Assembly: GCF_041415945.1 (NCBI RefSeq)
Contig: NZ_JBGCUS010000001.1
Coordinates: forward strand, 4,310,501-4,374,500
Length of the DNA stretch: 64,000 nucleotides
Direction of reading: 5' to 3'
Source: Ancylobacter sp. IITR112
GTDB taxonomy: Bacteria; Pseudomonadota; Alphaproteobacteria; Rhizobiales; Xanthobacteraceae
Shown here piece after piece: positions 8,303 to 55,389 of this stretch. The position numbers were made by a program, and so were the translations under genes. Positions within the stretch are counted from its first letter, which is position 1, and every line of letters begins with the position of its first letter. Under the pieces are notes generated by a model. The model did not search any database. It had not been told where the DNA came from and saw nothing but the letters and a program-made list of their open reading frames with translations.

Positions 8303-11300
8303 ATGTTCACGCGGCTGATGACGGCACGGCGCTTCGCGCCGCTGTTCTGGTGCCAGTTTTTCGCGGCGTTCAACGACAATTTCGTGAAGAACGCCATGGC
8401 GCTGCTGATCCTCTACGGCATCGCCCATGTGAATGGAGGCGCGCTGGTGACGCTGGCGGGCGGCGTGTTCATCCTGCCCTTCTTCCTGTTCTCCTCGCTC
8501 GGCGGCCAGCTTGCCGACCGCTACGACAAGGCGCTGATCGCCCGCCGGGTGAAGTTCGCCGAAATCTGGATCGTGCTCATCGCCAGCGCCGGCTTCGTCA
8601 TCCAGTCGATCCCGCTGCTGTTCCTCGGCCTGTTCCTCATGGGCACGCTGAGCGCGCTGTTCGGGCCGGTGAAATACGGCATCCTGCCCGATCACCTCGC
8701 CAAGGACGAACTGGTCTCCGGCAATGCGCTGATCGAGATGGCGACCTTCGCCGCCATTCTCGGCGGCACGGTGGGCGGGGCGCTGGCCTTCACCCACACG
8801 GGCGAATGGGCGGTGGCCGGCTTCACCTTCGTGCTCGCCGTCATCGCCTGGCTTTCCGCCCGCGCCATTCCGCCGACGCTGCCCGGCGCGCCGGACCTCA
8901 AAATCGACCGCAACATCTGGCGCAGCACGATGACGCTGCTCGCCGACATCCGCGCCGAGCGGCCGATCTGGCGCGGGGCGCTGATCGTCTCCTGGTTCTG
9001 GCTGGTCGGCGGCGTGGTGCTCTCGCTGCTGCCCACCCTGGTGAAGGACAATATCGGCGGGCTGGAAAGCGTCGTCACCCTGTTCCTCGTGCTGTTCACC
9101 ATCGGCGTCGCCATCGGCTCGACGCTGGCGGCGAAACTGTCGGAAGGGCGCATCCTGCTGGCGCTGGTGCCGGCGGCGGGGCTGCTGATGGGCGTGTTCG
9201 CGCTCGATCTCGCCTGGCTGATGGGCACGCTCGCCCCCGCCGCCCAGCCGATCGGCTGGGACGAATTCCTCACCTCCGGCGCCGGCGTGCATGCCGCCAT
9301 CGGGCTGATCGGCCTTGCCGCCGCCGGCGGCGCCTTCGTGGTGCCGACCTTCGCCTTCGTGCAGGCCGCCGCTGGCGAGGACCGCCGCGCCCGGGTGATC
9401 GCCGGCAACAATGTGCTGAACGCCGCCTTCATGGTGGCGGGCGCGGTGATCGTCGCCGGCCTGCAATTCGCCGGCTTCACCGCCCCCGCGCTGCTGGGCG
9501 TGATCGGCGCGGCGAGCCTGATCGTCGCCATCCTCGCCGGCCGCGCCTTTCAGGGGCAGGTGATGCGCGACCTGATCAAGCTGGTGTTCCGTGTGCTGTT
9601 CCGCGTCGAGGTGACGGGGGCGGAGCATCTGAAGGCCGCCGGCCCCGGCTCGGTGATCGCCATCAACCATGTGAGCTTCCTCGACGCGCCGCTGATCATG
9701 GCGCTGCTCGACAATGACCCGGTCTTCGCCGTCGACCGCACCATCGCCGAGGCCTGGTGGGTGAAGCCCTTCCTCAAGCTGGTGCGCGCCTTCCCGCTCG
9801 ACCCGACCAAGCCGATGGCGACCCGCGACCTGATCCGCCAGGTGCAGCAGGGCGAGCAATTGGTGATCTTCCCCGAGGGGCGCATCACCGTCACCGGCTC
9901 GATCATGAAGATCTATGACGGCTCGGCGCTGATCGCCGACAAGGCCGACGCGCCCGTGGTGCCGGTGCGGATCGAAGGGCTGGAGCAGACCTATTTCTCC
10001 CGCCTCGACGGCCACCAGACCCGCAAGCGCCTGTTCCCGAAGGTGCGCGTCACCATCCTGCCGCCGCGCAAGCTGAAGGTCGACAAGGAGCTGTTCGGCC
10101 GCAAGCGCCGGCGCGCGGCGGGCGCGGCGCTCTATGACGTGATGAGCGATCTCGTCTTCGAGACCAGCCACACCAATGTCACCGTCTATCAGGCGGTGGA
10201 GGACGCGGCGGTGCGGCTCGGCATGAAGCGCATCGTGCTGGAAGACCCGCTCGGCACCATCCTGTCCTATCGCAAGCTGCTGCTGGGGGCGAAGATCCTC
10301 GGCGACAAGCTGGCGAAGGAAACCGCGCCGGGCGAGAAGGTGGGCGTGCTGCTGCCCAACGCCGCCGGCATCGCCGTGGTGCTGATGGGCCTTTCCCGCC
10401 ATGGCCGCGTGCCTGTCATGCTGAACTACACCGCCGGCGCCACCAATCTCGTCACCGCCTGCAAGGCGGCGGAGGTGAAGCTGGTGGTCGCCTCGCGCGC
10501 CTTCATCGAAAAGGCGCGGCTGGAGGCGGAGGTGGCGGAACTGGAAAAGCATGTGCGGGTGCTGATGAGCGAGGATATCCGCGCCTCGGTCACCACGCCG
10601 GACAAGCTGCGCGCCCTGCTGCCGCTGCCCGCGCCCAAGCCCGCCCATCCCGACGATCCGGCCTTCGTGCTGTTCACCTCAGGCTCGGAAGGCACGCCGA
10701 AGGGCGTCGTGCTCTCCCACCGCAACATCCTGACCAATGTGGCGCAGGTGGCGGCGCGCATCGACTTCTCGCCCGCCGACATCATGTTCAACGTGCTGCC
10801 GGTGTTCCATTCCTTCGGGCTCACCGGCGGGCTGGTGTTGCCGATGGTGTCGGGGCTGAAGACCTATCTCTACCCCTCTCCGCTGCACTACCGGATCATC
10901 CCGGAGCTGGTTTACGCCACCAATGCCACCGCCATTGTCGGCACCGACACCTTCCTCATGGGCTATGCCCGCACCGCCAACCCCTATGATTTCCGCTCGC
11001 TGCGCTTCGTGGTGGCGGGGGCCGAGCCGGTGAAGATGGAAACCCGGCGGGTGTGGATGGAGAAGTTCGGCCACCGCATCCTTGAAGGCTATGGCGTCAC
11101 CGAATGCGCGCCGGTGCTGGCGGTGAACACGCCGATGTTCAACCGCGTCGGCACGGTGGGGCGCATGTTGCCGGGCATCCATCACCGGCTGGAGACCATG
11201 GCCGGCATCGAGGAAGGCGGCAGGCTGCAGGTGCGCGGGCCCAATGTGATGCTCGGCTATCTCCGCGCGGAGAAGCCCGGCGTGATCGAGCCGCCGGAGC

Positions 11301-41690: not shown

Positions 41691-44483
41691 TCAGGCGGCA
41701 TTGGCCTCGTCATCGGCGTCGAGCACCTGCAGCAGCGCGCGGCGGATGGCGGAATGGCGCGCCGCGCCCATGATCTTCGCCCCCATCAGATCGGTGACGT
41801 AGAACACGTCCACCGCCCGCTCGCCGAAGGTGGCGATGTGGGCGGAGGCGATGTTGAGATTGAGCCGCGACAGCGTCTGGGTGAGGCCGTAGAGCAGGCC
41901 GGGCCGGTCGAGCCCCGACACCTCGATCACGGTATGGCGGTTCGACCAGGAATTGTTGAGCGTCACTTCCGGCTCGACGGTGAAGGCGCGCGGGCGCTTC
42001 GGGATGCGGCGGGCGACCACCTCCGGCAGCTTGATCTCGCCGGAAAGCGATTTCTCGATGGCGGCGGCGATGCGGTCGGCGCGGCGCAGCTCGTCCTCGT
42101 CCTGCTCGAAGGCGCGGGTCAGCGAGATGGTGTCGAGCGCGCGCCCGTCGGTGGTGGTGCTGATCTGGGCGTCGACGATATGCGCCCCGGCGCTGGCGCA
42201 GGCGCCGGCGATCACTGCCAGCAGCTTGGGGTGGTCGGGGGCGAAGACGGTGAGCTCGGTGATGCCGCGGCTGGGATCGGTGACGGCGCGGGTGGCGAGC
42301 GCCTTGCCCTGCGCCTCGGTCTCGCGGATGAAGCGGGCATGCTCCATCTGGTGCTCGCGGTCGGTCTGCAGCCAGTAGGTGGGGTAGTGGCGGCCGAGAT
42401 AGGCATCGAGCTCGGCGCTGTCCCAGTCGCCGAGCGCGCCGCGCAGCTCCTGCTGGGCGCGGGCGACGCGCTGGTTGCGGTTGCTCTCGGAAAAGCCGCC
42501 GGTGATGACCGGCTCGGTCTCGTGATAGAGCGTGCGCAGAAGCTGCGACTTCCAATTGTTCCACACGCCCGGCCCCACGGCGCGGATGTCGGCGGTGGTG
42601 AGGATGAGCAGAAGCTTCATCCGCTCCAGATTCTGCACCACGCTCGCGAAATTCTCGATCGTCTTGCGGTCGGAGAGGTCGCGCGACTGGGCGATGGTGG
42701 ACATGGTGAGGTGCTGTTCGATCAGCCAGGCCACCGTGTCGGTGTCCACCGGGCTGAGGCCGAAGCGCGGGCACAGGCGGCGGGCGACGCGGGCGCCGGC
42801 GATGGAATGGTCCTCCGGCCGGCCCTTGGCGATGTCGTGCAGCAGCACCGCGATGTAGAGCAATTGCCGGTTCTTGATGGTCGGCATCAGTTCGTTGGCG
42901 AGGCCGTAATCGGGCCGGTCGCCGCGCTCGATGCGCGAGAGCGCGCCGATGGAGCGGATGAGGTGCTCGTCCACCGTGTAGGAATGGTACATGTTGAACT
43001 GCATCATCGCGACGATGCGGCCGAATTCGGGGATGAAGCGGCCGAGCACGCCGGTCTCGTTCATCCGCCGCAGCACGATTTCCGGGCTTTCCTTCGAGGT
43101 GAGGATCTCGACGAACAGCCGGTTGGCTTCCGGGTTCTCGCGCAGATTGTGGTCGATCAGCTTGAGCGAGCGCGTGGCGAGACGCATCGCGTCCGGGTGG
43201 AAGTTCAGCCCGTGCTTGCCGGCGAGATGGAAGATGCGGATGAGGTTCAGCGGGTCGCGGCCGAAGGCGCTGGAATCGGCGACATTGATGCGGTCATTGT
43301 CGACGATGAAGTCGGCGCTTTCCTTCAGCGTGCGCCGGCCGGAGCGGCGCAGCCGCGCGATCATCCGGTCGAGCCGCGGCACCGGCTTGTCGTGGCGCTC
43401 TTCCAGCGCGGCGGAGACGATGGCGGTGAGGTCGCCGACATCCTTGGCCACGAGGAAATAGTGCTTCATGAAGCGCTCCACATCCTTCAGCCCGGGATGG
43501 GAGACATAGCCGAGCCGCTCGGCCATTTCGCGCTGCAGGTCGAAGGACAGGCGCTCCTCCGCCTTGCCGGCGAGGAAATGCAGGTGGCAGCGCACCGACC
43601 AGAGGAAATTCTCGCAGCGGCGGAAGATCTTGGCTTCCTCCGCCGTGAAGACGCCCTTGGCGACGAGTTCGCGCGTCTCGTGGACGCGATAGACATATTT
43701 GGCGATCCAGAACAGCGTGTGCAGGTCGCGCAGGCCGCCCTTGCCGTCCTTCACATTCGGCTCGACGACATAGCGCGACTGGCCGGCGCGCTTCAGCCGC
43801 TCCTCGCGCTCGCCGAGCTTGGCGGCGACGAATTCGGCGGCCGTGCCCTGCACCACCTCCTTGTCGAAGCGTGCGGTCAACTCGTCGAACAGGTTTTTGT
43901 CGCCGATCAGCAGGCGGGCTTCCAGCAGCGCGGTGCGGATGGTCATGTCGCCGCGCGCCTGGCGGATGCACTCATCGACCGAGCGGGTGGAGTGGCCGAC
44001 CTTCAGCCCCATGTCCCACAGCACATAGAGAATGGCTTCGGCGACGCTCTCGCCCCAGGCGGTCTGCTTGTAGGGCAGCAGGAACAGAATGTCGGTGTCC
44101 GAGCCCGGCGCCATCAGGCCGCGGCCATAGCCGCCGACGGCGACGATCGCCATGCGCTCGGAGGTGGAGGGGTTGTCCGAGGGGTAGAGCGTCTTCACCG
44201 CCAGTTCGTGCACCAGCGCGATGATCTCGTCCTGCAGGCGCGAGAGCCGTTCGGCACAGCGCCGGCCGGAACCGTCCTCCATCAGCCAGCGCTCGGCGAC
44301 CATATGGCCGTGCTGATAGGCGGCTTTCAGGCGGCGGGCCATCTGCGTGCGCAGTTCGATCTCGCGGCCAGAGCGGCTGGTGCCCAGCACCTCGCGCGCC
44401 AGCGTGCCGAGTTCGGCCCGCATGGCGTCGATGTCGAACAGTTCCTTGAAGGGATGGTCGGGGCGGCGGCGGGGTTCGGTCAT
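41691..44483 (-). CDS. glnD: Bifunctional [protein-PII] uridylyltransferase/uridylyl-removing enzyme
   Basis: GlnD senses glutamine and modifies PII proteins, controlling nitrogen assimilation. The 930-residue product has a nucleotidyltransferase site GGYGRGLMAPGSDTDILFL, an HD hydrolase domain with LLHDIAKGRPEDHS, and two C-terminal ACT domains. These begin near TVFAPDHPKLLAVIAG and VIEVSGLDRPGLLYGL. All four domains are intact. The gene lies downstream of three tandem terminator-like repeats that shield it from the stress-response genes on the same strand. Confidence 0.97.
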   Translation of the reverse strand: MTEPRRRPDHPFKELFDIDAMRAELGTLAREVLGTSRSGREIELRTQMARRLKAAYQHGHMVAERWLMEDGSGRRCAERLSRLQDEIIALVHELAVKTLYPSDNPSTSERMAIVAVGGYGRGLMAPGSDTDILFLLPYKQTAWGESVAEAILYVLWDMGLKVGHSTRSVDECIRQARGDMTIRTALLEARLLIGDKNLFDELTARFDKEVVQGTAAEFVAAKLGEREERLKRAGQSRYVVEPNVKDGKGGLRDLHTLFWIAKYVYRVHETRELVAKGVFTAEEAKIFRRCENFLWSVRCHLHFLAGKAEERLSFDLQREMAERLGYVSHPGLKDVERFMKHYFLVAKDVGDLTAIVSAALEERHDKPVPRLDRMIARLRRSGRRTLKESADFIVDNDRINVADSSAFGRDPLNLIRIFHLAGKHGLNFHPDAMRLATRSLKLIDHNLRENPEANRLFVEILTSKESPEIVLRRMNETGVLGRFIPEFGRIVAMMQFNMYHSYTVDEHLIRSIGALSRIERGDRPDYGLANELMPTIKNRQLLYIAVLLHDIAKGRPEDHSIAGARVARRLCPRFGLSPVDTDTVAWLIEQHLTMSTIAQSRDLSDRKTIENFASVVQNLERMKLLLILTTADIRAVGPGVWNNWKSQLLRTLYHETEPVITGGFSESNRNQRVARAQQELRGALGDWDSAELDAYLGRHYPTYWLQTDREHQMEHARFIRETEAQGKALATRAVTDPSRGITELTVFAPDHPKLLAVIAGACASAGAHIVDAQISTTTDGRALDTISLTRAFEQDEDELRRADRIAAAIEKSLSGEIKLPEVVARRIPKRPRAFTVEPEVTLNNSWSNRHTVIEVSGLDRPGLLYGLTQTLSRLNLNIASAHIATFGERAVDVFYVTDLMGAKIMGAARHSAIRRALLQVLDADDEANAA

Positions 44484-44550
44484 GGCAGGGTCCGGCTGGT
44501 CGGATATCCGCTTTACCCGATCCGCCGCCCCGCGTCATCGTGCGCTGCCG

Positions 44551-44693
44551 CGCGGGCAAGGGGGTCAAACAAGACATGCCCGCCCCGCCGCGAGGGGCGG
44601 GCAAGGGGTTCAAACAAGACATGCCCGCCCCGCCACGAGGGGCGGGCAAGGGGTTCAAACAAGACATGCCCGCCACGAGGGGCGGGCATGTCC
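44551..44693. repeat. Three tandem 45-bp repeats forming terminator-like hairpins
   Basis: Units start at 44551, 44596 and 44641, with a period of 45 bases and only a few differences. The third unit lacks 5 bases. Each folds into a strong stem, TGCCCGCCCC/GGGGCGGGCA at 44577-44603 and 44622-44648. The third is a perfect 12-bp stem at 44663-44692. Read on the minus strand each stem is followed by TTGTTTGA, as in Rho-independent terminators. They lie between the PRC-barrel gene and glnD, both on the minus strand. Confidence 0.85.
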
Positions 44694-44767
44694 ATCCTGA
44701 CGGCACGGCTGACGCCGGCGGTCGCTACAAGAGGGCCGCGCAAGGCGGCCGAACCGTGAGGTCGTGA

Positions 44768-45364
44768 TCAGTTAGTGGTGGTGGCCGGCGCGGTGCCGGT
44801 GCTCGGGGTCTCCGAACGAGCCTGCTCAAGGCTCTTGAATTCCGGGGCCGAGTTCAGCTCTTCCTTGGTCAGCGACACGACGACCTTCTCGCCGTCATCG
44901 GTCGGGGTGGCGGTCAGCGACTCGAAGGAGACCGCGACCGGCTTGGCGCCGATGCCGAGGAAACCACCCACGTCGATCACCACGGCGATGATTTCGCCTT
45001 CGCGCTCGACGATCACGTCGCTGATCGAGCCGAGCTTCTCGTCATTGGCGGTGACGACTTCGGTGCCCATCAGATCGGAGCCGAGCCACTGGCCGGCGCT
45101 CTGCGCGCTGATGAACTTCGGCGCGGCCGGGGTCGCGGCGGCCGACGCGGCCGGAGCGGCGCTGTCGGTCGAGCCGGCGGTGCCCGGCGTCGGGGTGGTC
45201 GCCGGCATTTCGGCGGCCGGAGCCTGCGGGTTGCCGGCATCCGGCTGCACCGGGCTGGCGGCCGGCGGGGTGGTGGTCTCGGGAGCCGGGCTCTGGGCGA
45301 AGGCGACCGCCGGGGCGAGCGCCAGGGCAGCGGCGGCGGTGAGTGTCGCAAGCTTGCTGGTCAT
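44768..45364 (-). CDS. Exported PRC-barrel domain protein
   Basis: The 198-residue product has a signal peptide (LATLTAAAALALAPAVAFAQ), a long proline/alanine/threonine-rich linker (about residues 23-88) and a PRC-barrel domain. The domain includes LGSDLMGTEVVTANDEKLGSI and GFLGIGAKPVAVSF. PRC-barrel proteins of this kind are common envelope stress proteins in Rhizobiales. A perfect sigma-EcfG promoter lies upstream, which supports stress control. The molecular role is unknown. Confidence 0.9.
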   Translation of the reverse strand: MTSKLATLTAAAALALAPAVAFAQSPAPETTTPPAASPVQPDAGNPQAPAAEMPATTPTPGTAGSTDSAAPAASAAATPAAPKFISAQSAGQWLGSDLMGTEVVTANDEKLGSISDVIVEREGEIIAVVIDVGGFLGIGAKPVAVSFESLTATPTDDGEKVVVSLTKEELNSAPEFKSLEQARSETPSTGTAPATTTN

Positions 45365-45427
45365 CGTCTTCTCCGTCAGGTTTGGAATTTCTGAAATCGG
45401 ACCGATCTCTCGGCCGTCCGCAGAAAA

Positions 45428-45452
45428 AACGAAGTAGAGTGGAAGAAGTTCC
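45428..45452 (-). promoter_or_regulatory. Sigma-EcfG promoter of PRC-barrel gene
   Basis: On the minus strand GGAAC (45452-45448) and CGTT (45431-45428) are separated by exactly 16 bases, a perfect match to the alphaproteobacterial general-stress promoter GGAAC-N16/17-CGTT. The expected transcript would start near 45420, about 55 bases before the ATG at 45364. Confidence 0.85.
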
Positions 45453-45496
45453 AAGCGGACCAGGTTTTTCGCCAATGGTAATGGCTTATGACTGCG

Positions 45497-45946
45497 TCAG
45501 CTTCGGCCGATCATCGAGGCGTCGGCGACGCAAACGGTGAGTTCTTCGGTGGAGAGACTGGACTTGGTCACTCCGAGGGCCGACAGGCATCCCTTGGGAG
45601 TGCGTGTCGCGCGGCTCGGCGCGATGGGAGCCGGTTCCGGCTGGCTGTTGACGATGGCGGGGGTCGGCGTCCGGTCCGAGGTGGCGAGAGGCGTGTCCGC
45701 TGCGGTGGCGGCGTGGGCCGGAGCGGCGATGTCGAGGCGCGCGCCCTTGCCGGTGCGGTTGACGAGATGCGCCTGCCGCGCACCCGGCTCTGGCCCGAAG
45801 CTCTCGATCGCCACGGGCTGCGGCGCCGCGCGCGTCATCGAGCCGGTGGCCAGCGCGCCGGCGGTGAGCGGCACCATCAGGGCGACGCCGGTGGCGGCGC
45901 CGAACAGATAGGCGGAGGTTTTGAAAACGCTGTCGGTGCCCGGCAT
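45497..45946 (-). CDS. Small single-span membrane protein, unknown
   Basis: This 149-residue protein has a membrane helix near the N-terminus (SAYLFGAATGVALMVPLTAGALA), a proline/alanine-rich middle, and a C-terminal block, KGCLSALGVTKSSLSTEE, then TVCVADA. The C-terminal block looks conserved in composition and has two cysteines. I do not recognise the family. The ATG at 45946 has GGGGAG nine bases upstream. It lies between the PRC-barrel gene and the stress-response kinase gene, and a sigma-EcfG-type promoter (17-base spacer) lies about 140 bases upstream. A stress-related role is therefore likely. Confidence 0.75.
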   Translation of the reverse strand: MPGTDSVFKTSAYLFGAATGVALMVPLTAGALATGSMTRAAPQPVAIESFGPEPGARQAHLVNRTGKGARLDIAAPAHAATAADTPLATSDRTPTPAIVNSQPEPAPIAPSRATRTPKGCLSALGVTKSSLSTEELTVCVADASMIGRS

Positions 45947-46085
45947 CACTGTCTCCCCTTCCAGCCCGTCCGCAGGCAGCCGCCCTCGCTCGCGCGGCGC
46001 CTCACGCCGCTGCCGGAGCTTTTCCGCAGACGATTTGTTTCGGTGAACCTGGTGCGGCGAGCGCTGTCGCCGCGATCGCAGGGTT

Positions 46086-46111
46086 AACGCGGGTAAAGGG
46101 TTTCCCGTTCC
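46086..46111 (-). promoter_or_regulatory. Sigma-EcfG promoter (17-base spacer) upstream of small membrane protein
   Basis: Minus-strand GGAAC (46111-46107) and CGTT (46089-46086) are separated by 17 bases, the other accepted spacing for EcfG promoters. It lies in the 232-base gap between the kinase stop and the start at 45946, leaving a leader of about 130 bases. No other gene is downstream on this strand before 45946. Confidence 0.7.
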
Positions 46112-46178
46112 CGCGCGCATTCACGTTTTCGTGCGCGGCGGGCCGGACCATGTTCGCGACAATGAGCGGAGGGCGCGC

Positions 46179-47498
46179 TCAGCGCTCGGGCGTCAGGTGG
46201 CTTTCGGGCACGCTGACGGTGCAGACAAGGCCGGTGGGGGCGAAGTCGAGTTCGACCTTGCCGTCGAGCGCGCGGGCGAGGTTGCGCTCAATCACCAGAG
46301 AGCCGAAGCCGCGCCCGGCTGGCTTCGACACGGGCGGGCCGCCGCGCTCGCGCCAAGTGAGTTCGAAACCGCCGCCGGCTTCCGGCGTGCGCCTCATCCA
46401 GGTGATGTCGACATGGCCGCCCGGCACCGACAGCGCCCCATATTTGGCGGCGTTGGTGGAAAGCTCGTGGATGGCGAGGCCGATATTCTGCGCCGCCTCG
46501 GGCTTCAGGAAGAGGCTCGGGCCGTCAATGGTGAACTGGCTGTTCTCGCGGTCGAGATGATGGCCGAGCTGGGAGCGGACCATGTCGTTGAGCGAGGCGC
46601 CGTACCAGCTTTCCTGCACCAGCAGGTCGTGCGACTTCGACAGCGCCTGCAGCCGCGCGCTGAAAATCTCGACGAAATTGTCGATCGAGCCAGCGTGGCG
46701 GGCGGTCTGGCGCGCCATCGCCTGGATCACCGCCAGAAGATTCTTCGAGCGGTGGGTGAGTTCGCGCATCAGCAGGCGCAGATGCTGCTCATTCTCCTTG
46801 CGCTCGGTCACATCGACGGCAGCGCCGGTGAGCCCGACCGTCGTGCCGGCGAGGTCGCGCAGCGGGTCGATATGGATGTCGTACCAGCATTTGCGTCCGG
46901 CTTCCTCGATCTCGATCTCGCCCTTGCGCGAGGCGGAGGTGGCGACGGCGTCGCGCTTGAGCAAGGTGAGCGCCTGGGCGTGGCCTTCACCGAGAAGTTC
47001 GGCATCAGTCGAGCCGAGCACCCGCTCCACGGGAAAGCCGAACAGGGGCTTGCTCACCGAGGTGTAGCGAAGGTCGCGATCCTGGGTGAAGATCGCCACA
47101 TTGGAGCCGCGCAGCGCCATCTCGTAGCGCTGCAGTGCCGTAGCCAGTTCCAACGTCAGCCGGCGCTGCTCGCTGATCACATGGCGCGGCGCCGGCATGT
47201 CGATCAGCGCGGCGAAATTCGACCACAGCGCCACCGCGCCGGTGAGGTTGAGCAGGGCGATGCCGATGCGCACCCCCATCGGCAGCAGCGGAAAGGTGCT
47301 GCCGAAGTCGAAGATCACCAGCAGGGACAGCACGCCGAACAGCAGCACCAGCGTCGCGAGCAGCAGGCCCAGCAGCCGGGTGCGCAGCGACAGATTGGGC
47401 CTGAGGTAGAGCAGGCGCACCAGAGCGACGAAAATCGCCAGCGACGCCAGAACGGTGGTCCAGCGCGCGGCGTTGTCGACGAGAGCGATGTCGAGCAT
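46179..47498 (-). CDS. HWE-family sensor histidine kinase with PAS domain
   Basis: This membrane kinase has 439 residues. Three or so N-terminal spans (residues 10-100) precede a PAS domain (about 125-235), then an HWE/HisKA_2 transmitter with His249 in RELTHRSKNLLAVIQAMARQ. The catalytic domain has IHELSTNAAKYGAL (N box) and the WRE signature in LTWRERGGP. HWE kinases next to phyR are the phosphodonors of the general stress response. The gene lies 10 bases after phyR on the same strand, so it shares phyR's promoter. Confidence 0.93.
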   Translation of the reverse strand: MLDIALVDNAARWTTVLASLAIFVALVRLLYLRPNLSLRTRLLGLLLATLVLLFGVLSLLVIFDFGSTFPLLPMGVRIGIALLNLTGAVALWSNFAALIDMPAPRHVISEQRRLTLELATALQRYEMALRGSNVAIFTQDRDLRYTSVSKPLFGFPVERVLGSTDAELLGEGHAQALTLLKRDAVATSASRKGEIEIEEAGRKCWYDIHIDPLRDLAGTTVGLTGAAVDVTERKENEQHLRLLMRELTHRSKNLLAVIQAMARQTARHAGSIDNFVEIFSARLQALSKSHDLLVQESWYGASLNDMVRSQLGHHLDRENSQFTIDGPSLFLKPEAAQNIGLAIHELSTNAAKYGALSVPGGHVDITWMRRTPEAGGGFELTWRERGGPPVSKPAGRGFGSLVIERNLARALDGKVELDFAPTGLVCTVSVPESHLTPER

Positions 47499-47508
47499 TT
47501 AGGGGCGC

Positions 47509-48312
47509 TCAGGCAGTGGCGCGCTGCTCCCGCGGGCGGGCGCGTCGTTCGAAGAACAGCGCCTGGCTGATGACGGCGGCGACCGTCGAGGGCTGGAACG
47601 GCTTGGCGATCAGGAAGGCCGGCTCGGGGCGCACGCCGGTGAGGAAGCGCTCGGGATAGGCGGTGATGAAGATCACCGGCACCTCGGTGTTCTCGATCAG
47701 CTCGTTCACCGCATCGAGGCCGGAGGAGCCGTCCGCCAGCTGGATGTCGGCGAGGATGAGGCCGGGCGCCTTGCGGCGGGCGAGATCCACCGCTTCCGTA
47801 TGCGTGCGGGCGATGCCGGTGACGCGGTGGCCGAGACCCTCGACGAGGCCTTCGAGATCCAGCGCGATGAAGGGTTCGTCCTCGATGATCAGCACGTCGG
47901 TGGCGATTTCCGCCGCCAGTTCCCGCCCGGCATCCTCGACCAGATTGCGCAGTGTTGGAACGTCGATGGAGAGGATGCTGGCCGCCTCTTCCTCCGAGAA
48001 ACCTTCCAGCGACACCAGCAGAAACGCCTGGCGCACCACAGGGGTGATATGGCCGAGACGCCGCTCGCCCTGGAGCGGCGCGGGCGTCGCGTCGACCTGG
48101 GCGTTCAGTGTCACCGAATCCCACAGGCGCGTGAGCAGGGTATAGAGCGCGACGCGAGGATCAATCGAACGGTCGAGCGTCGAGGGGTCGGCGATCAACG
48201 TTTCGAGCAGGGCCGTAACATAGGCGTCGCCGGCCGACTGGCTGCCGCTCAGCGCGCGCGCATAGCGGCGCAGAAAGGGCAGGTGCTGCGCGACAAGTTG
48301 AGAAGTGCTCAC
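47509..48312 (-). CDS. phyR: Anti-anti-sigma response regulator PhyR
   Basis: PhyR is the switch of the alphaproteobacterial general stress response. When phosphorylated it binds NepR and frees the sigma factor EcfG. The 267-residue product has an N-terminal sigma-like domain (about 1-135, with LEGFSEEEAASILSIDVPTL) and a C-terminal receiver domain. The acidic pocket is IIEDEP, the phospho-acceptor is Asp189 in LILADIQLADG, and the conserved lysine lies in IAKPF. It is divergent from nepR-ecfG. Its upstream region contains a perfect EcfG promoter on its own strand. Confidence 0.97.
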   Translation of the reverse strand: MSTSQLVAQHLPFLRRYARALSGSQSAGDAYVTALLETLIADPSTLDRSIDPRVALYTLLTRLWDSVTLNAQVDATPAPLQGERRLGHITPVVRQAFLLVSLEGFSEEEAASILSIDVPTLRNLVEDAGRELAAEIATDVLIIEDEPFIALDLEGLVEGLGHRVTGIARTHTEAVDLARRKAPGLILADIQLADGSSGLDAVNELIENTEVPVIFITAYPERFLTGVRPEPAFLIAKPFQPSTVAAVISQALFFERRARPREQRATA

Positions 48313-48351
48313 TCGCGTCTCCCCGAAGCTGCAAATTGTGAAGCGGCTGTT

Positions 48352-48376
48352 AACGCATCATGGACCGCCCGGTTCC
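48352..48376 (-). promoter_or_regulatory. Sigma-EcfG promoter of phyR and the HWE kinase gene
   Basis: Minus-strand GGAAC (48376-48372) and CGTT (48355-48352) are separated by 16 bases. The transcript would begin near 48345, about 30 bases before the phyR ATG at 48312. This implies positive feedback of EcfG on its own activator. Confidence 0.88.
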
Positions 48377-48415
48377 GGAGTAGGTCAAAAATTTCTTGCA
48401 CGCACTACAATTCCC

Positions 48416-48440
48416 GGAACCGTTTTGGCTTTGGCTCGTT
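48416..48440 (+). promoter_or_regulatory. Sigma-EcfG promoter of nepR-ecfG
   Basis: GGAAC (48416-48420) and CGTT (48437-48440) are separated by 16 bases, in the gap between phyR and nepR. It faces away from the phyR promoter, and the two -35 elements lie 39 bases apart back to back. It would give a leader of about 48 bases before nepR and makes nepR-ecfG autoregulated. Confidence 0.9.
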
Positions 48441-48495
48441 GTGACCTCGTATGCAGCGACGGAGCCGTCTTCCCTCTCGACCTTTCGGGGGCTCA

Positions 48496-48750
48496 ATGTC
48501 GGGAAAGAAAATTATGAGTGACGATCATTCGGAGGGCGCCGCCGCCGCAGCGGACGGTTTGTCCTCCTCGCCTCTCGGAGGCGGCAAGGACACCGCGCTC
48601 GGCAACGAGATCCAGGCCAAGATCGGCCAGCATCTGCGCGCCATGTATGACGATGTGGTGCGCCAGGGCGTGCCCGACCGGTTCATGGACCTGCTGTCCA
48701 AGCTCGACAAGGCGGACACCTCGTCCGATGGGGGCGGGGGGCGCCAGTGA
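48496..48750 (+). CDS. nepR: Anti-sigma factor NepR
   Basis: NepR is a small protein that holds EcfG inactive until PhyR removes it. The 84-residue product has the conserved helix pair IQAKIGQHLRAMYDDVVRQG, then VPDRFMDLLSKLD, with disordered ends. The ATG at 48496 is used, and another at 48514 would shorten it by six residues. It overlaps ecfG by 4 bases (GTGA), giving matched synthesis of anti-sigma and sigma. Confidence 0.95.
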   Translation: MSGKKIMSDDHSEGAAAAADGLSSSPLGGGKDTALGNEIQAKIGQHLRAMYDDVVRQGVPDRFMDLLSKLDKADTSSDGGGGRQ

Positions 48751-49298
48751 GCCGATTTGACCCGACCCTGCGCGACGAGATCATCGCCGCCATCCCCAAT
48801 CTGCGAGCTTTCGCCATCTCGCTCTCGGGCAGCGTCGACCGTGCCGACGACCTGGTGCAGGAAACGCTGCTGCGGGCCTTCGCCAATATTTCGAGCTTCC
48901 GGCCCGGCACCAATTTGCCGGCCTGGCTGTTCACCATCCTGCGCAACCTGTTCCGCTCGGAATATCGCAAGCGGCGGCGGGAGGTGCCGGATTCCGATGG
49001 CGCCTTCGCGGCGACGCTGACCAGCAATCCCGACCAGAACACGCATCTGGATTTCGAGGATTTCCGCGCCGCGCTCGACCAGCTTCCGCCGGATCAGCGC
49101 GAGGCGCTGGTGCTCGTCGGCGCGTCCGGTTTTTCCTATGAGGAAGCCGCCGATATCTGCGAGTGCGCGGTGGGCACCATCAAGAGCCGGGTGAACCGGG
49201 CGCGCAAGCGGCTCGGCGAGATGCTGGCGTTGGACGATGCCAGCGATTTCGGTCCCGACAAGACCACGCGGGCGGTTCTCGCCGCCGAGCGCACCTGA
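48747..49298 (+). CDS. ecfG: ECF sigma factor EcfG (general stress sigma)
   Basis: This 183-residue ECF15-type sigma factor directs RNA polymerase to GGAAC/CGTT promoters. Region 2 has LSGSVDRADDLVQETLLRAFANI, then FTILRNLFRSEYRKRRRE. Region 4 has LDQLPPDQREALVLVGASGFSYEEAA, then VGTIKSRVNRARKRL. It starts with GTG inside the nepR stop. A strong terminator lies 68 bases after the stop codon. Confidence 0.96.
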   Translation: MSRFDPTLRDEIIAAIPNLRAFAISLSGSVDRADDLVQETLLRAFANISSFRPGTNLPAWLFTILRNLFRSEYRKRRREVPDSDGAFAATLTSNPDQNTHLDFEDFRAALDQLPPDQREALVLVGASGFSYEEAADICECAVGTIKSRVNRARKRLGEMLALDDASDFGPDKTTRAVLAAERT

Positions 49299-49366
49299 AC
49301 CGGCGCCGGCCGGACGACCTATCCCCCCTTCACTCGCGCCTTTTCAGCCCCGTGCCCTCACGCGGG

Positions 49367-49396
49367 AACGCCCCCGGTTTGCGCCGGGGGCGTTTT
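49367..49396 (+). terminator. Rho-independent terminator after ecfG
   Basis: AACGCCCCCGG (49367-49377) pairs perfectly with CCGGGGGCGTT (49384-49394), with a 6-base loop and a TTTT tail. It ends the nepR-ecfG transcript and lies tail-to-tail with the DUF1328 gene, so it may serve both. Confidence 0.9.
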
Positions 49397-49424
49397 GCGC
49401 GGTTCGGCTGGCGGGCGTCGCCCG

Positions 49425-49598
49425 TCAGGGCGCCCGCCCCCGGCGCATGAAGCCGACCACCGCCGACACGAGGAACAGGATGATGGCGACAAAGAAGATG
49501 ATCTTGGCGATTTCGATCGCGGTCCCGGCGATGCCGCCGAAACCGAGCACGGCGGCGATCAGTGCCACCACGAGAAAGGTCAGCGCCCAACCCAGCAT
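49425..49598 (-). CDS. DUF1328 small membrane protein
   Basis: This 57-residue peptide has two hydrophobic helices: [20 protein letters not shown] and [19 protein letters not shown]. It ends in MRRGRAP. It is a typical DUF1328/YtjA member, a small inner-membrane protein of unknown function. These are often members of stress regulons. GGAGG lies 8 bases before the ATG. A near-consensus EcfG promoter upstream and its place beside ecfG fit that idea. Confidence 0.9.
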
Positions 49599-49652
49599 GT
49601 AAGCCTCCACTTGACTCGACCCGGCGAAACGGCCGTGGCCGTGTGGCGGGAC

Positions 49653-49677
49653 AACCGCTGAGGCGGGCGAGGGTTCC
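49653..49677 (-). promoter_or_regulatory. Near-consensus sigma-EcfG promoter of DUF1328 gene
   Basis: Minus-strand GGAAC (49677-49673) is followed after 16 bases by GGTT (49656-49653), differing from CGTT only in the first base. It lies about 55 bases before the ATG at 49598. It is less certain than the perfect copies nearby. Confidence 0.5.
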
Positions 49678-49765
49678 CCCGGCACCGGGGGGATGGCCGG
49701 CGCCGACTTGCCGTCCGATGGGGGGCAGCTAGGATGGGCAGGGTGCTGGCGGGGTATTGGGGCGC

Positions 49766-50590
49766 ATGAGCCTGCGAAACTGGGTAAAATCTTGTGTGCC
49801 GCCGGCTGTGCTGGCGCGCCTGCGCGCCATCCGCGCGCGCTTCGCGCCGCCGCATCCGATCCAGGCGTTCGTCTACAGCGATGCGCGCGAGGTGCGCGAG
49901 GATATCGCCCGCAAATATGGTGAGGTGGGCGACATGCTCACTTATTTCGCCGGCCACGATGTGGGTGTCGTCCACAAATGGCACCATTACATCCCGCTCT
50001 ATGAGCGCTATTTCGCGCCCTATCGCGGCCGGCCGGTGCGGCTGCTGGAGATCGGCGTCAGCAAGGGCGGCAGCCTGTGGATGTGGCGCCGCTATTTCGG
50101 CCCGGACGCGGTCATTTACGGCATTGATATCGACCCGGCCTGCGCAGCCTATGATGGCGTGGCCGGTCAGGTTCGGATCGGCTCGCAGGTCGATGTGGCG
50201 TTCCTCCACCGCGTGGTGGATGAAATGGGCGGCGTGGATATCGTCCTCGACGATGGCAGCCATCTCATGGAGCATCTTCCGGTGACGCTGGAGGCGCTAT
50301 TCGGCCGGCTGTCGGATGGCGGCCTCTACATGGTCGAGGATCTGCACACCGCCTATTGGCGCGAATATGGCGGCGGCTATGGCAGCCGGCGCAATTTCTT
50401 CCGCTATGTCGACGGCATCATCGCCGACATGCATCGCTGGTATCACCGCCACAAGCTGGTGCACCCCGCCGTCAGCGCGCGCTGCACGGGCATCCACATC
50501 CATGATTCGATGGTGATCCTCGAAAAGGGGCCGGTCTACCCGCCGGTTTCGTCCCAAGTCGGTACGGAGGCGCCCGCCTCCCCGAACTGA
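49766..50590 (+). CDS. Class I SAM-dependent methyltransferase (MycE-like)
   Basis: The 274-residue product has a methyltransferase core with [38 protein letters not shown] and [11 protein letters not shown]. This pattern matches sugar O-methyltransferases of the MycE / rhamnosyl O-methyltransferase group. The likely substrate is a glycan or sugar-containing metabolite, but none is indicated by the neighbours. The ATG at 49766 is chosen over a TTG three codons earlier. A short basic N-terminal arm precedes the domain. Confidence 0.85.
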
Positions 50591-55008: not shown

Positions 55009-55033
55009 GGAACCCGTGGCCCGAGCGCACGTT
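55009..55033 (+). promoter_or_regulatory. Sigma-EcfG promoter of glycine-zipper lipoprotein gene
   Basis: GGAAC (55009-55013) and CGTT (55030-55033) are separated by exactly 16 bases. This perfect copy lies in the 238-base gap after the GNAT gene, about 90 bases before the lipoprotein ATG at 55132. It puts this gene in the EcfG regulon although it is 6 kb from the stress locus. Confidence 0.85.
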
Positions 55034-55131: not shown

Positions 55132-55389
55132 ATGCTCAAGATCGTTGTGCTCACGCTGGCCACGCTCAGCATTGCCGCCTGCACCACCACGGAGCGCCGT
55201 GCCACCGGCGGCGCGCTCATCGGCGGCGGCACTGGCGCGGTGATCGGCGGCATTGCCGGCGGCGGCACTGGCGCGGCGATCGGCGCGGGCGTGGGCGCGG
55301 GCACCGGCGCGCTGATCGGCGCGGCGACCTCGCCGGGCGACTGCTGGGCCTATGACCGCTATGGCCGGCGCGTGCCGGCGCGCTGCTGA
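55132..55389 (+). CDS. Glycine-zipper outer-membrane lipoprotein
   Basis: This 85-residue protein has a lipoprotein signal (VVLTLATLSIAAC, lipobox cysteine at residue 17). A glycine/alanine/isoleucine-rich zipper of repeating GG(T)GA(V/A)IG units follows, and the tail is CWAYDRYGRRVPARC with two cysteines. Glycine-zipper lipoproteins insert in or near the outer membrane and respond to envelope stress. A strong AAAGGAGAGGG site precedes the ATG, a perfect EcfG promoter lies upstream and a terminator follows. It is therefore a single-gene unit. Confidence 0.9.
   Translation: MLKIVVLTLATLSIAACTTTERRATGGALIGGGTGAVIGGIAGGGTGAAIGAGVGAGTGALIGAATSPGDCWAYDRYGRRVPARC

Follow-up and report, generated by a model that had tools for sequence, protein, structure and literature searches.

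A window of 64,000 nucleotides of the Ancylobacter sp. IITR112 genome (contig NZ_JBGCUS010000001.1, positions 4,310,501 to 4,374,500) very probably holds a core locus of the alphaproteobacterial general stress response together with a local regulon of the sigma factor EcfG. The pair phyR-kinase is divergent from nepR-ecfG with an EcfG-type site ahead of each unit, and further sites of this type precede genes for a PRC-barrel protein, a DUF1328 protein, a lipoprotein and a small single-helix protein. The stress regulon of Ancylobacter-type bacteria becomes readable from sequence. The locus itself is an ordinary general stress locus; its less ordinary part is the family of the single-helix protein, which is linked to phyR and might be a missing part or an effector of the stress response.

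The core genes were readily recognised. The phyR gene (47509..48312, minus strand, GTG start) encodes a protein of 267 amino acids matched by NF006623 (361.7 bits, cut-off 240), PF22029, PF22233 and PF00072, that is, a sigma-like domain fused to a receiver according to Pfam and NCBIfam. The gene for an HWE-family sensor kinase (46179..47498, minus strand, 439 amino acids; PF07536 with E 4.7e-27, and PF08448, PAS_4) starts 10 nt after phyR and has no site of its own; the kinase has a hydrophobic N-terminus and carries the HRxxN motif, read as HRSKN in the translation. HWE kinase matches numbered four in the genome scanned (4,991,190 bases, 11 contigs). On the plus strand, the anti-sigma factor gene nepR (48496..48750) gave 62.8 bits with PF18557 (cut-off 25.7), stayed under the cut-off of the NCBIfam NepR model NF051865 (33.8 of 100 bits) and was the only NepR match in the genome; it likely starts at 48496 or 48514 instead of 48451. 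The ecfG gene (48747..49298, plus strand) overlaps nepR by 4 nt and encodes an extracytoplasmic function (ECF) sigma factor of 183 amino acids (NF009192, 347.7 bits, cut-off 307; Sigma70_r2 and Sigma70_r4_2). Because the kinase gene follows phyR so closely without its own site, and nepR and ecfG overlap, each pair is presumably co-transcribed from its divergent EcfG site. A preliminary description made from the sequence had named the PRC-barrel protein, HWE kinase, PhyR, NepR, EcfG, DUF1328 and lipoprotein genes; Pfam confirmed all of these identities and NCBIfam most of them. A second sigma factor considered as EcfG candidate (G000:C1:25405-25569) was 38% identical to EcfG over residues 16-163 and was taken as a different ECF sigma factor; it is followed by a frame that resembles an anti-sigma gene by eye, and no EcfG site was found in the 4 kb read there.

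The pattern GGAAC-N16/17-CGTT occurred exactly five times in the window. In 100 dinucleotide-preserving shuffles 0.51 matches were expected (standard deviation 0.82, largest 4), and five or more were reached in none. Two N16 sites lie between the divergent units, at 48352-48376 (minus strand, 39 nt before phyR) and 48416-48440 (plus strand, before nepR-ecfG). The PRC-barrel gene is preceded by an N16 site at a distance of 63 nt (45428-45452, minus strand), the small-protein gene by an N17 site at 139 nt (46086-46111, minus strand) and the lipoprotein gene by an N16 site at 98 nt (55009-55033, plus strand). Coordinates and strands of these five copies are exactly those given in the preliminary description, which had also listed a one-mismatch copy before the DUF1328 gene. 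This sixth site (49653-49677, minus strand, 54 nt before DUF1328) reads GGAAC-N16-GGTT, so that its -10 element begins with G instead of C. Since the consensus of Methylobacterium extorquens is GAAC-N16,17-C/GGTT and allows either base there (PMC4814048), we treat it as a full match. A sigma-70 scan gave a single match, at 48757 just within ecfG (0.4 expected), and Rfam at gathering cut-offs gave no match in 44400-49800.

We then compared the locus with its relatives. A PhyR scan of genome contigs was reduced to the best 80 of 342 loci, which comprise an Ancylobacter-type set of 20 loci (L031-L050: 17 named Ancylobacter species, 'Xanthobacteraceae bacterium 501b', one Xanthobacteraceae metagenome-assembled genome and 'Bosea sp. 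117') and a distant set of 60 loci (L051-L110). PhyR relatives at 96-97% identity came from five Ancylobacter species and 'Xanthobacteraceae bacterium 501b'. The Ancylobacter-type loci share the gene order lipoprotein, GNAT, fmt, LysR, DUF1328, ecfG, nepR / phyR, kinase, small protein, PRC-barrel, glnD, except for a contig end in L048 and a missing GNAT match in L049. Within 300 nt upstream of the genes of this set, CGTT sites were found before phyR in 18/20, nepR in 13/20, the small protein in 12/20, PRC in 16/20, DUF1328 in 10/19 and the lipoprotein in 19/19 loci. When C or G was allowed as the first -10 base, the counts became 18/20, 19/20, 13/20, 18/20, 18/19 and 19/19, respectively. With the same tolerant pattern, sites were absent before the flanking genes (glnD 0/20, LysR 0/19, fmt 0/19, GNAT 0/18) and before the operon-internal genes (ecfG and kinase, 0/20 each), and eight off-target spacings pooled per gene gave at most one match per gene. 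A looser pattern, GGAA-N17/18-(C/G)GTT, was not used; it scores before LysR in 11/19 loci. With small-protein starts set by hand in these loci, by which the members of L043 and L045 were recovered, 13/20 had a CGTT site within 400 nt; among the remaining loci one had GGTT and six a one-mismatch site at 134-155 nt. In the distant set, tolerant sites precede phyR in 45/60, nepR in 48/60, DUF1328 in 18/23, PRC in 6/7 and the lipoprotein in 2/2 loci, compared with 4/55 for ecfG and 1/35 for the kinase.

In a further approach, we counted perfect GGAAC-N16/17-CGTT sites in the whole genome and found 77 (47 N16, 30 N17). The neighbouring spacings gave 82 sites for the four spacings N12-15 and 90 for N18-21, that is, 38.5 sites per spacing at N16-17 versus 20.5 and 22.5. 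We read 75 of the 77 sites: 63 lie outside coding-looking frames, and for 49 of the 63 a coding-looking start follows at a distance of 5-260 nt. This call of the downstream gene is a rough composition rule that misses real targets; it named no gene for the window sites at 46086 and 55009. From the 49, 20 downstream proteins were chosen by eye for a Pfam scan, and 19 matched: Ku (two), DJ-1/PfpI, Cu-Zn SOD, a transglycosylase-associated protein, topoisomerase IB, PRC-barrel, DUF308, trehalose phosphatase, a second DUF1328, CBM48/amylase, amylase, PAS_2-GAF, DUF892, PAS/GAF, ROK, DUF1236, nucleotidyl transferase and DUF2934.

Both the layout and the targets resemble known systems. The general stress locus described before has a nepR-ecfG operon divergent from phyR and EcfG-type promoters on both; HRxxN kinases set the phosphorylation state of PhyR, which binds NepR once phosphorylated, and EcfG is freed for polymerase (PMC4814048). 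The divergent layout, the EcfG-type promoter sites and an HRxxN kinase are all present in the window, which differs in that the HWE kinase gene directly follows phyR, and the small-protein and PRC-barrel genes come next. M. extorquens has six ecfG genes, all of them away from the phyR locus (PMC4814048). In line with this, the Methylobacterium loci L084, L085 and L096 gave no EcfG match. In Sphingomonas melonis, EcfG-dependent genes include those for Ku, topoisomerase IB, GlgX and one protein with a PRC-barrel, and DUF1328 is not named there (PMC6599016). In Sinorhizobium meliloti, RpoE2 raises a PRC-barrel gene with a GGAAC-N16-CGTT promoter (PMC6180224). These two regulons and ours have in common a GGAAC...GTT-type motif and targets of the PRC-barrel, Ku, topoisomerase IB and GlgX type, whereas the Ancylobacter regulon is defined by sites and conservation only. 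In the literature searched, 'Ancylobacter' and 'general stress response' occur together in one paper, once each, which by its title concerns N-methylglutamate production.

By analogy, an HRxxN kinase, probably the phyR neighbour, would phosphorylate PhyR, which would then capture NepR and release EcfG to polymerase. EcfG would start transcription at GGAAC-N16/17-(C/G)GTT sites, feeding back on phyR-kinase and nepR-ecfG and switching on the nearby small envelope proteins, namely the PRC-barrel protein, DUF1328, the glycine-zipper lipoprotein and the single-helix protein (45497-45946). Promoter activity and partner switching are what we infer here from sequence. The regulon reading is supported because sites recur before the same genes, because the excess is spacing-specific and because stress genes lie behind other sites. 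The preliminary description had predicted such a local regulon, and this largely stands: sites recur before phyR, nepR, the small protein, PRC, DUF1328 and the lipoprotein. The kinase and ecfG, which it also listed, lack sites of their own and would be members through the presumed co-transcription only.

Some observations weigh against a regulon of this extent. L031, L032, L034 and L035, which are among the closest relatives, have only a one-mismatch site before the small-protein gene. In nine genomes of the bacterial family (L117-L125) there is no full GGAAC-N16/17-(C/G)GTT before phyR or the small-protein gene. Every small-protein gene of these nine is preceded by a one-mismatch site, and in L117, L119, L120, L121 and L123 the mismatch is the first G only, which fits the GAAC-N16,17-C/GGTT form; these are weak candidates for EcfG sites, since such matches also arise by chance in controls. 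In the distant set, the eight pooled wrong spacings gave 7 matches before nepR in 60 loci (kinase 4, DUF1328 3, phyR 1). Genome-wide, the excess sits mostly at N16, and N17 is only modestly above the neighbouring spacings. The reversed-pattern control was not flat either, with 41 sites at N16-17, 130 at N12-15 and 131 at N18-21 (20.5, 32.5 and 32.75 per spacing); because its outer spacings reach 32.5 and 32.75, the excess is small by this measure. With N17 so little above its neighbours, many individual genome sites must be chance matches, and about half of the 77 probably are. It might be asked whether the phyR and nepR promoters are the only real ones, with chance matches or relics before the PRC-barrel, small-protein, DUF1328 and lipoprotein genes. 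That about half of the genome sites are expected from neighbouring spacings, and that the DUF1328 site has G in place of C, would speak for this. But the sites recur at similar distances before orthologues even when CGTT alone is counted (PRC 16/20, DUF1328 10/19, lipoprotein 19/19), and wrong spacings give almost none in the Ancylobacter-type set, so we regard this alternative as very improbable.

The small protein itself (45497..45946, minus strand, 149 amino acids, most likely starting at ATG 45946) has an NRxxKGxRL-like motif, a C-terminal cysteine pair and no database family. The preliminary description had called it an unknown small membrane protein. No Pfam or NCBIfam model matched in ten members of its family. 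What that description missed is its membership of a phyR-linked family. Compared with eight relatives, dN/dS of the frame was 0.16-0.51, and in the last 40 codons it was about 0.02-0.035 compared with three; these low values indicate selection as a protein. A motif search on both strands and at any position of all loci found relatives in 30/60 distant loci, all 30 on the phyR strand downstream of phyR. A perfect CGTT site lies at most 300 nt upstream of 26 of them (GGTT in two, one mismatch in one and none in one), compared with sites before 95/837 greedily picked open reading frames from those loci, among them known stress genes (Fisher p 8e-20, common descent ignored). The distant members, from Xanthobacteraceae, Rhodoplanes, Pseudolabrys, Microvirga and Methylobacterium, share one hydrophobic stretch, the KGxRL-like motif, the cysteine pair and the position on the phyR strand downstream, and differ from the window in that phyR and the small-protein gene often have no kinase gene between them. 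Profile comparison (hhalign) of the Ancylobacter-type set, whose 22-row profile includes one wrong-frame row (L033, 104 amino acids), with the distant set gave 94.9% probability. Because both sets had been picked via shared motifs, position is the independent evidence for the family.

We also searched whole genomes with the profile, leaving position unused, and obtained matches in 80/119 genomes of the bacterial family. For linkage, phyR positions were PF22029 matches chosen among the 150 listed rather than every match; our own genome has four, two of them among the matches listed. At E<=1e-5 there were 71 matches in 67 genomes. Of these, 50 follow the phyR start by no more than 5 kb on its strand; with the limit widened to 30 kb on that strand the number is 57 (one of these, in G156, upstream of phyR). 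The other 14 lie elsewhere, 12 on a different contig from phyR and two distant on the phyR contig. Among all matches at E<=1e-3, 58/98 were linked to phyR within 5 kb, and since the midpoint of 26 of these 58 lies 1.06-1.53 kb from the phyR start, the gene could there adjoin phyR. Across the order, 10 of 150 genomes had a match: five follow phyR within 5 kb, another is about 16 kb off, and four weak ones lie elsewhere. A protein search (8000 candidates scored) returned 237 homologues at E<=1e-3; the best 120 of the 237 had no Pfam domain, and those with names were hypothetical or uncharacterised, one label being unreadable. In one small-protein search, L001 was a chance match among 45 matches. 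Literature searches, for which subscription papers mostly fell outside the coverage, found no description of the family.

The family evolves fast, with member lengths of 97-200 amino acids. Invariant positions were R70, L71, G119, C120 and C139 in alignment A1 (36 rows) and K67, R70, L71, C120 and C139 in A2 (57 rows), partly circular because rows were picked by motif or profile. The members of L117-L126 were missed by the motif rule, found via profile matches and then read; the L of the motif and the G that precedes the first cysteine are variable in L120-L125 and L117-L119. The relatives in L117-L125 are real, with an NRxxK(A/G/S)DR motif and a (G/A)C...GRC(V/I)T end. AlphaFold2 on A2 (57 rows) predicted one confident helix, 7-33, and the rest with low confidence (mean pLDDT 59.9, pTM 0.26). 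From this model and the sequence we infer topology and role: the protein may be anchored in the inner membrane and have a flexible, exported tail, where a disulfide is possible, and may act as an envelope-side stress effector. Longer members (L051, L066, L076, L080, L085, L086, L088, L089, L096, L103, L106) have about 45 additional residues (like EVVGIRDAAIVYRDRDGRVLYRSDP) after the KGxRL motif and ahead of the cysteine pair; five that were scanned gave no convincing Pfam match.

Could the protein be more than an effector? A feedback role, in which it also acts from the envelope side, either on the membrane kinase linked to phyR or on the phosphorylation of PhyR, is conceivable and rather doubtful. 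In its favour are the phyR linkage of 50/71 good whole-genome matches, the conservation of the helix, of the juxtamembrane motif and of the cysteine pair in a tail for which no other structure is predicted, and the persistence of the small protein in loci without a detected HWE kinase relative beside phyR (for example L052, L056, L065, L067 and L070). But the same kinase-less loci speak against the phyR-adjacent kinase as its partner, and linkage would be equally expected for a simple effector. More specifically, the protein might be an overlooked conserved part of the switch, made by EcfG, whose exported tail reports the state of the envelope, such as redox via the cysteine pair, to PhyR signalling; we hold this, too, to be unlikely. 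That the frame 45497-45946 is a leader or 3' region of neighbouring transcripts and no protein gene might be suggested by its lack of a domain, the mean pLDDT and the long leader (139 nt), but it is hard to reconcile with the low dN/dS, the homologues and the lack of an Rfam match, and we consider it extremely unlikely.

The PRC-barrel protein (44768..45364, minus strand, 198 amino acids; PF05239, E 9.8e-14) has an N-terminal signal-like stretch; ATG 45364 is the most likely start of its gene, the mechanical open reading frame having begun at TTG 45475. DUF1328 is a small membrane protein of 57 amino acids (49425..49598, minus strand; PF07043, E 2.7e-15), and the lipoprotein is a YMGG glycine-zipper protein of 85 amino acids (55132..55389, plus strand; PF13441, E 9.8e-8). 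Between the PRC-barrel gene and glnD, at 44552-44688, a 45-bp unit is present in about 3 copies, with terminator-like minus-strand hairpins. In L100, L107 and L110, the HWE kinase gene is followed downstream by a gene for a small exported, putatively DUF992-like protein (TCDISGGIG...FGLD.GAT.GGEMVW), which has an EcfG-type site immediately ahead of it. In 8/20 Ancylobacter-type loci (L039, L041, L042, L044, L045, L046, L049, L050) a perfect antisense GGAAC-N17-CGTT lies inside phyR (9267-9292, minus strand), directed toward nepR-ecfG, after the codons for ITP..RQAF; an ATA codon keeps the site in the five carriers printed. This site is absent from the window and was not used as evidence.

Outside the window, eight perfect EcfG-type sites lie within 33 kb (G000:C1:718664-751472), denser than the window group; three of them precede genes for topoisomerase IB, a DUF2934 protein and a transglycosylase-associated protein, and the region is possibly a second stress island. 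Another EcfG-type site (G000:C1:2224007-2224031, minus strand; also L136) lies about 170 nt before a phytochrome-like PAS_2-GAF frame, and further on, on the same strand as this frame, is an HWE kinase match (2222037-2222279). Given this arrangement, stress may induce the very light input that feeds the stress response.

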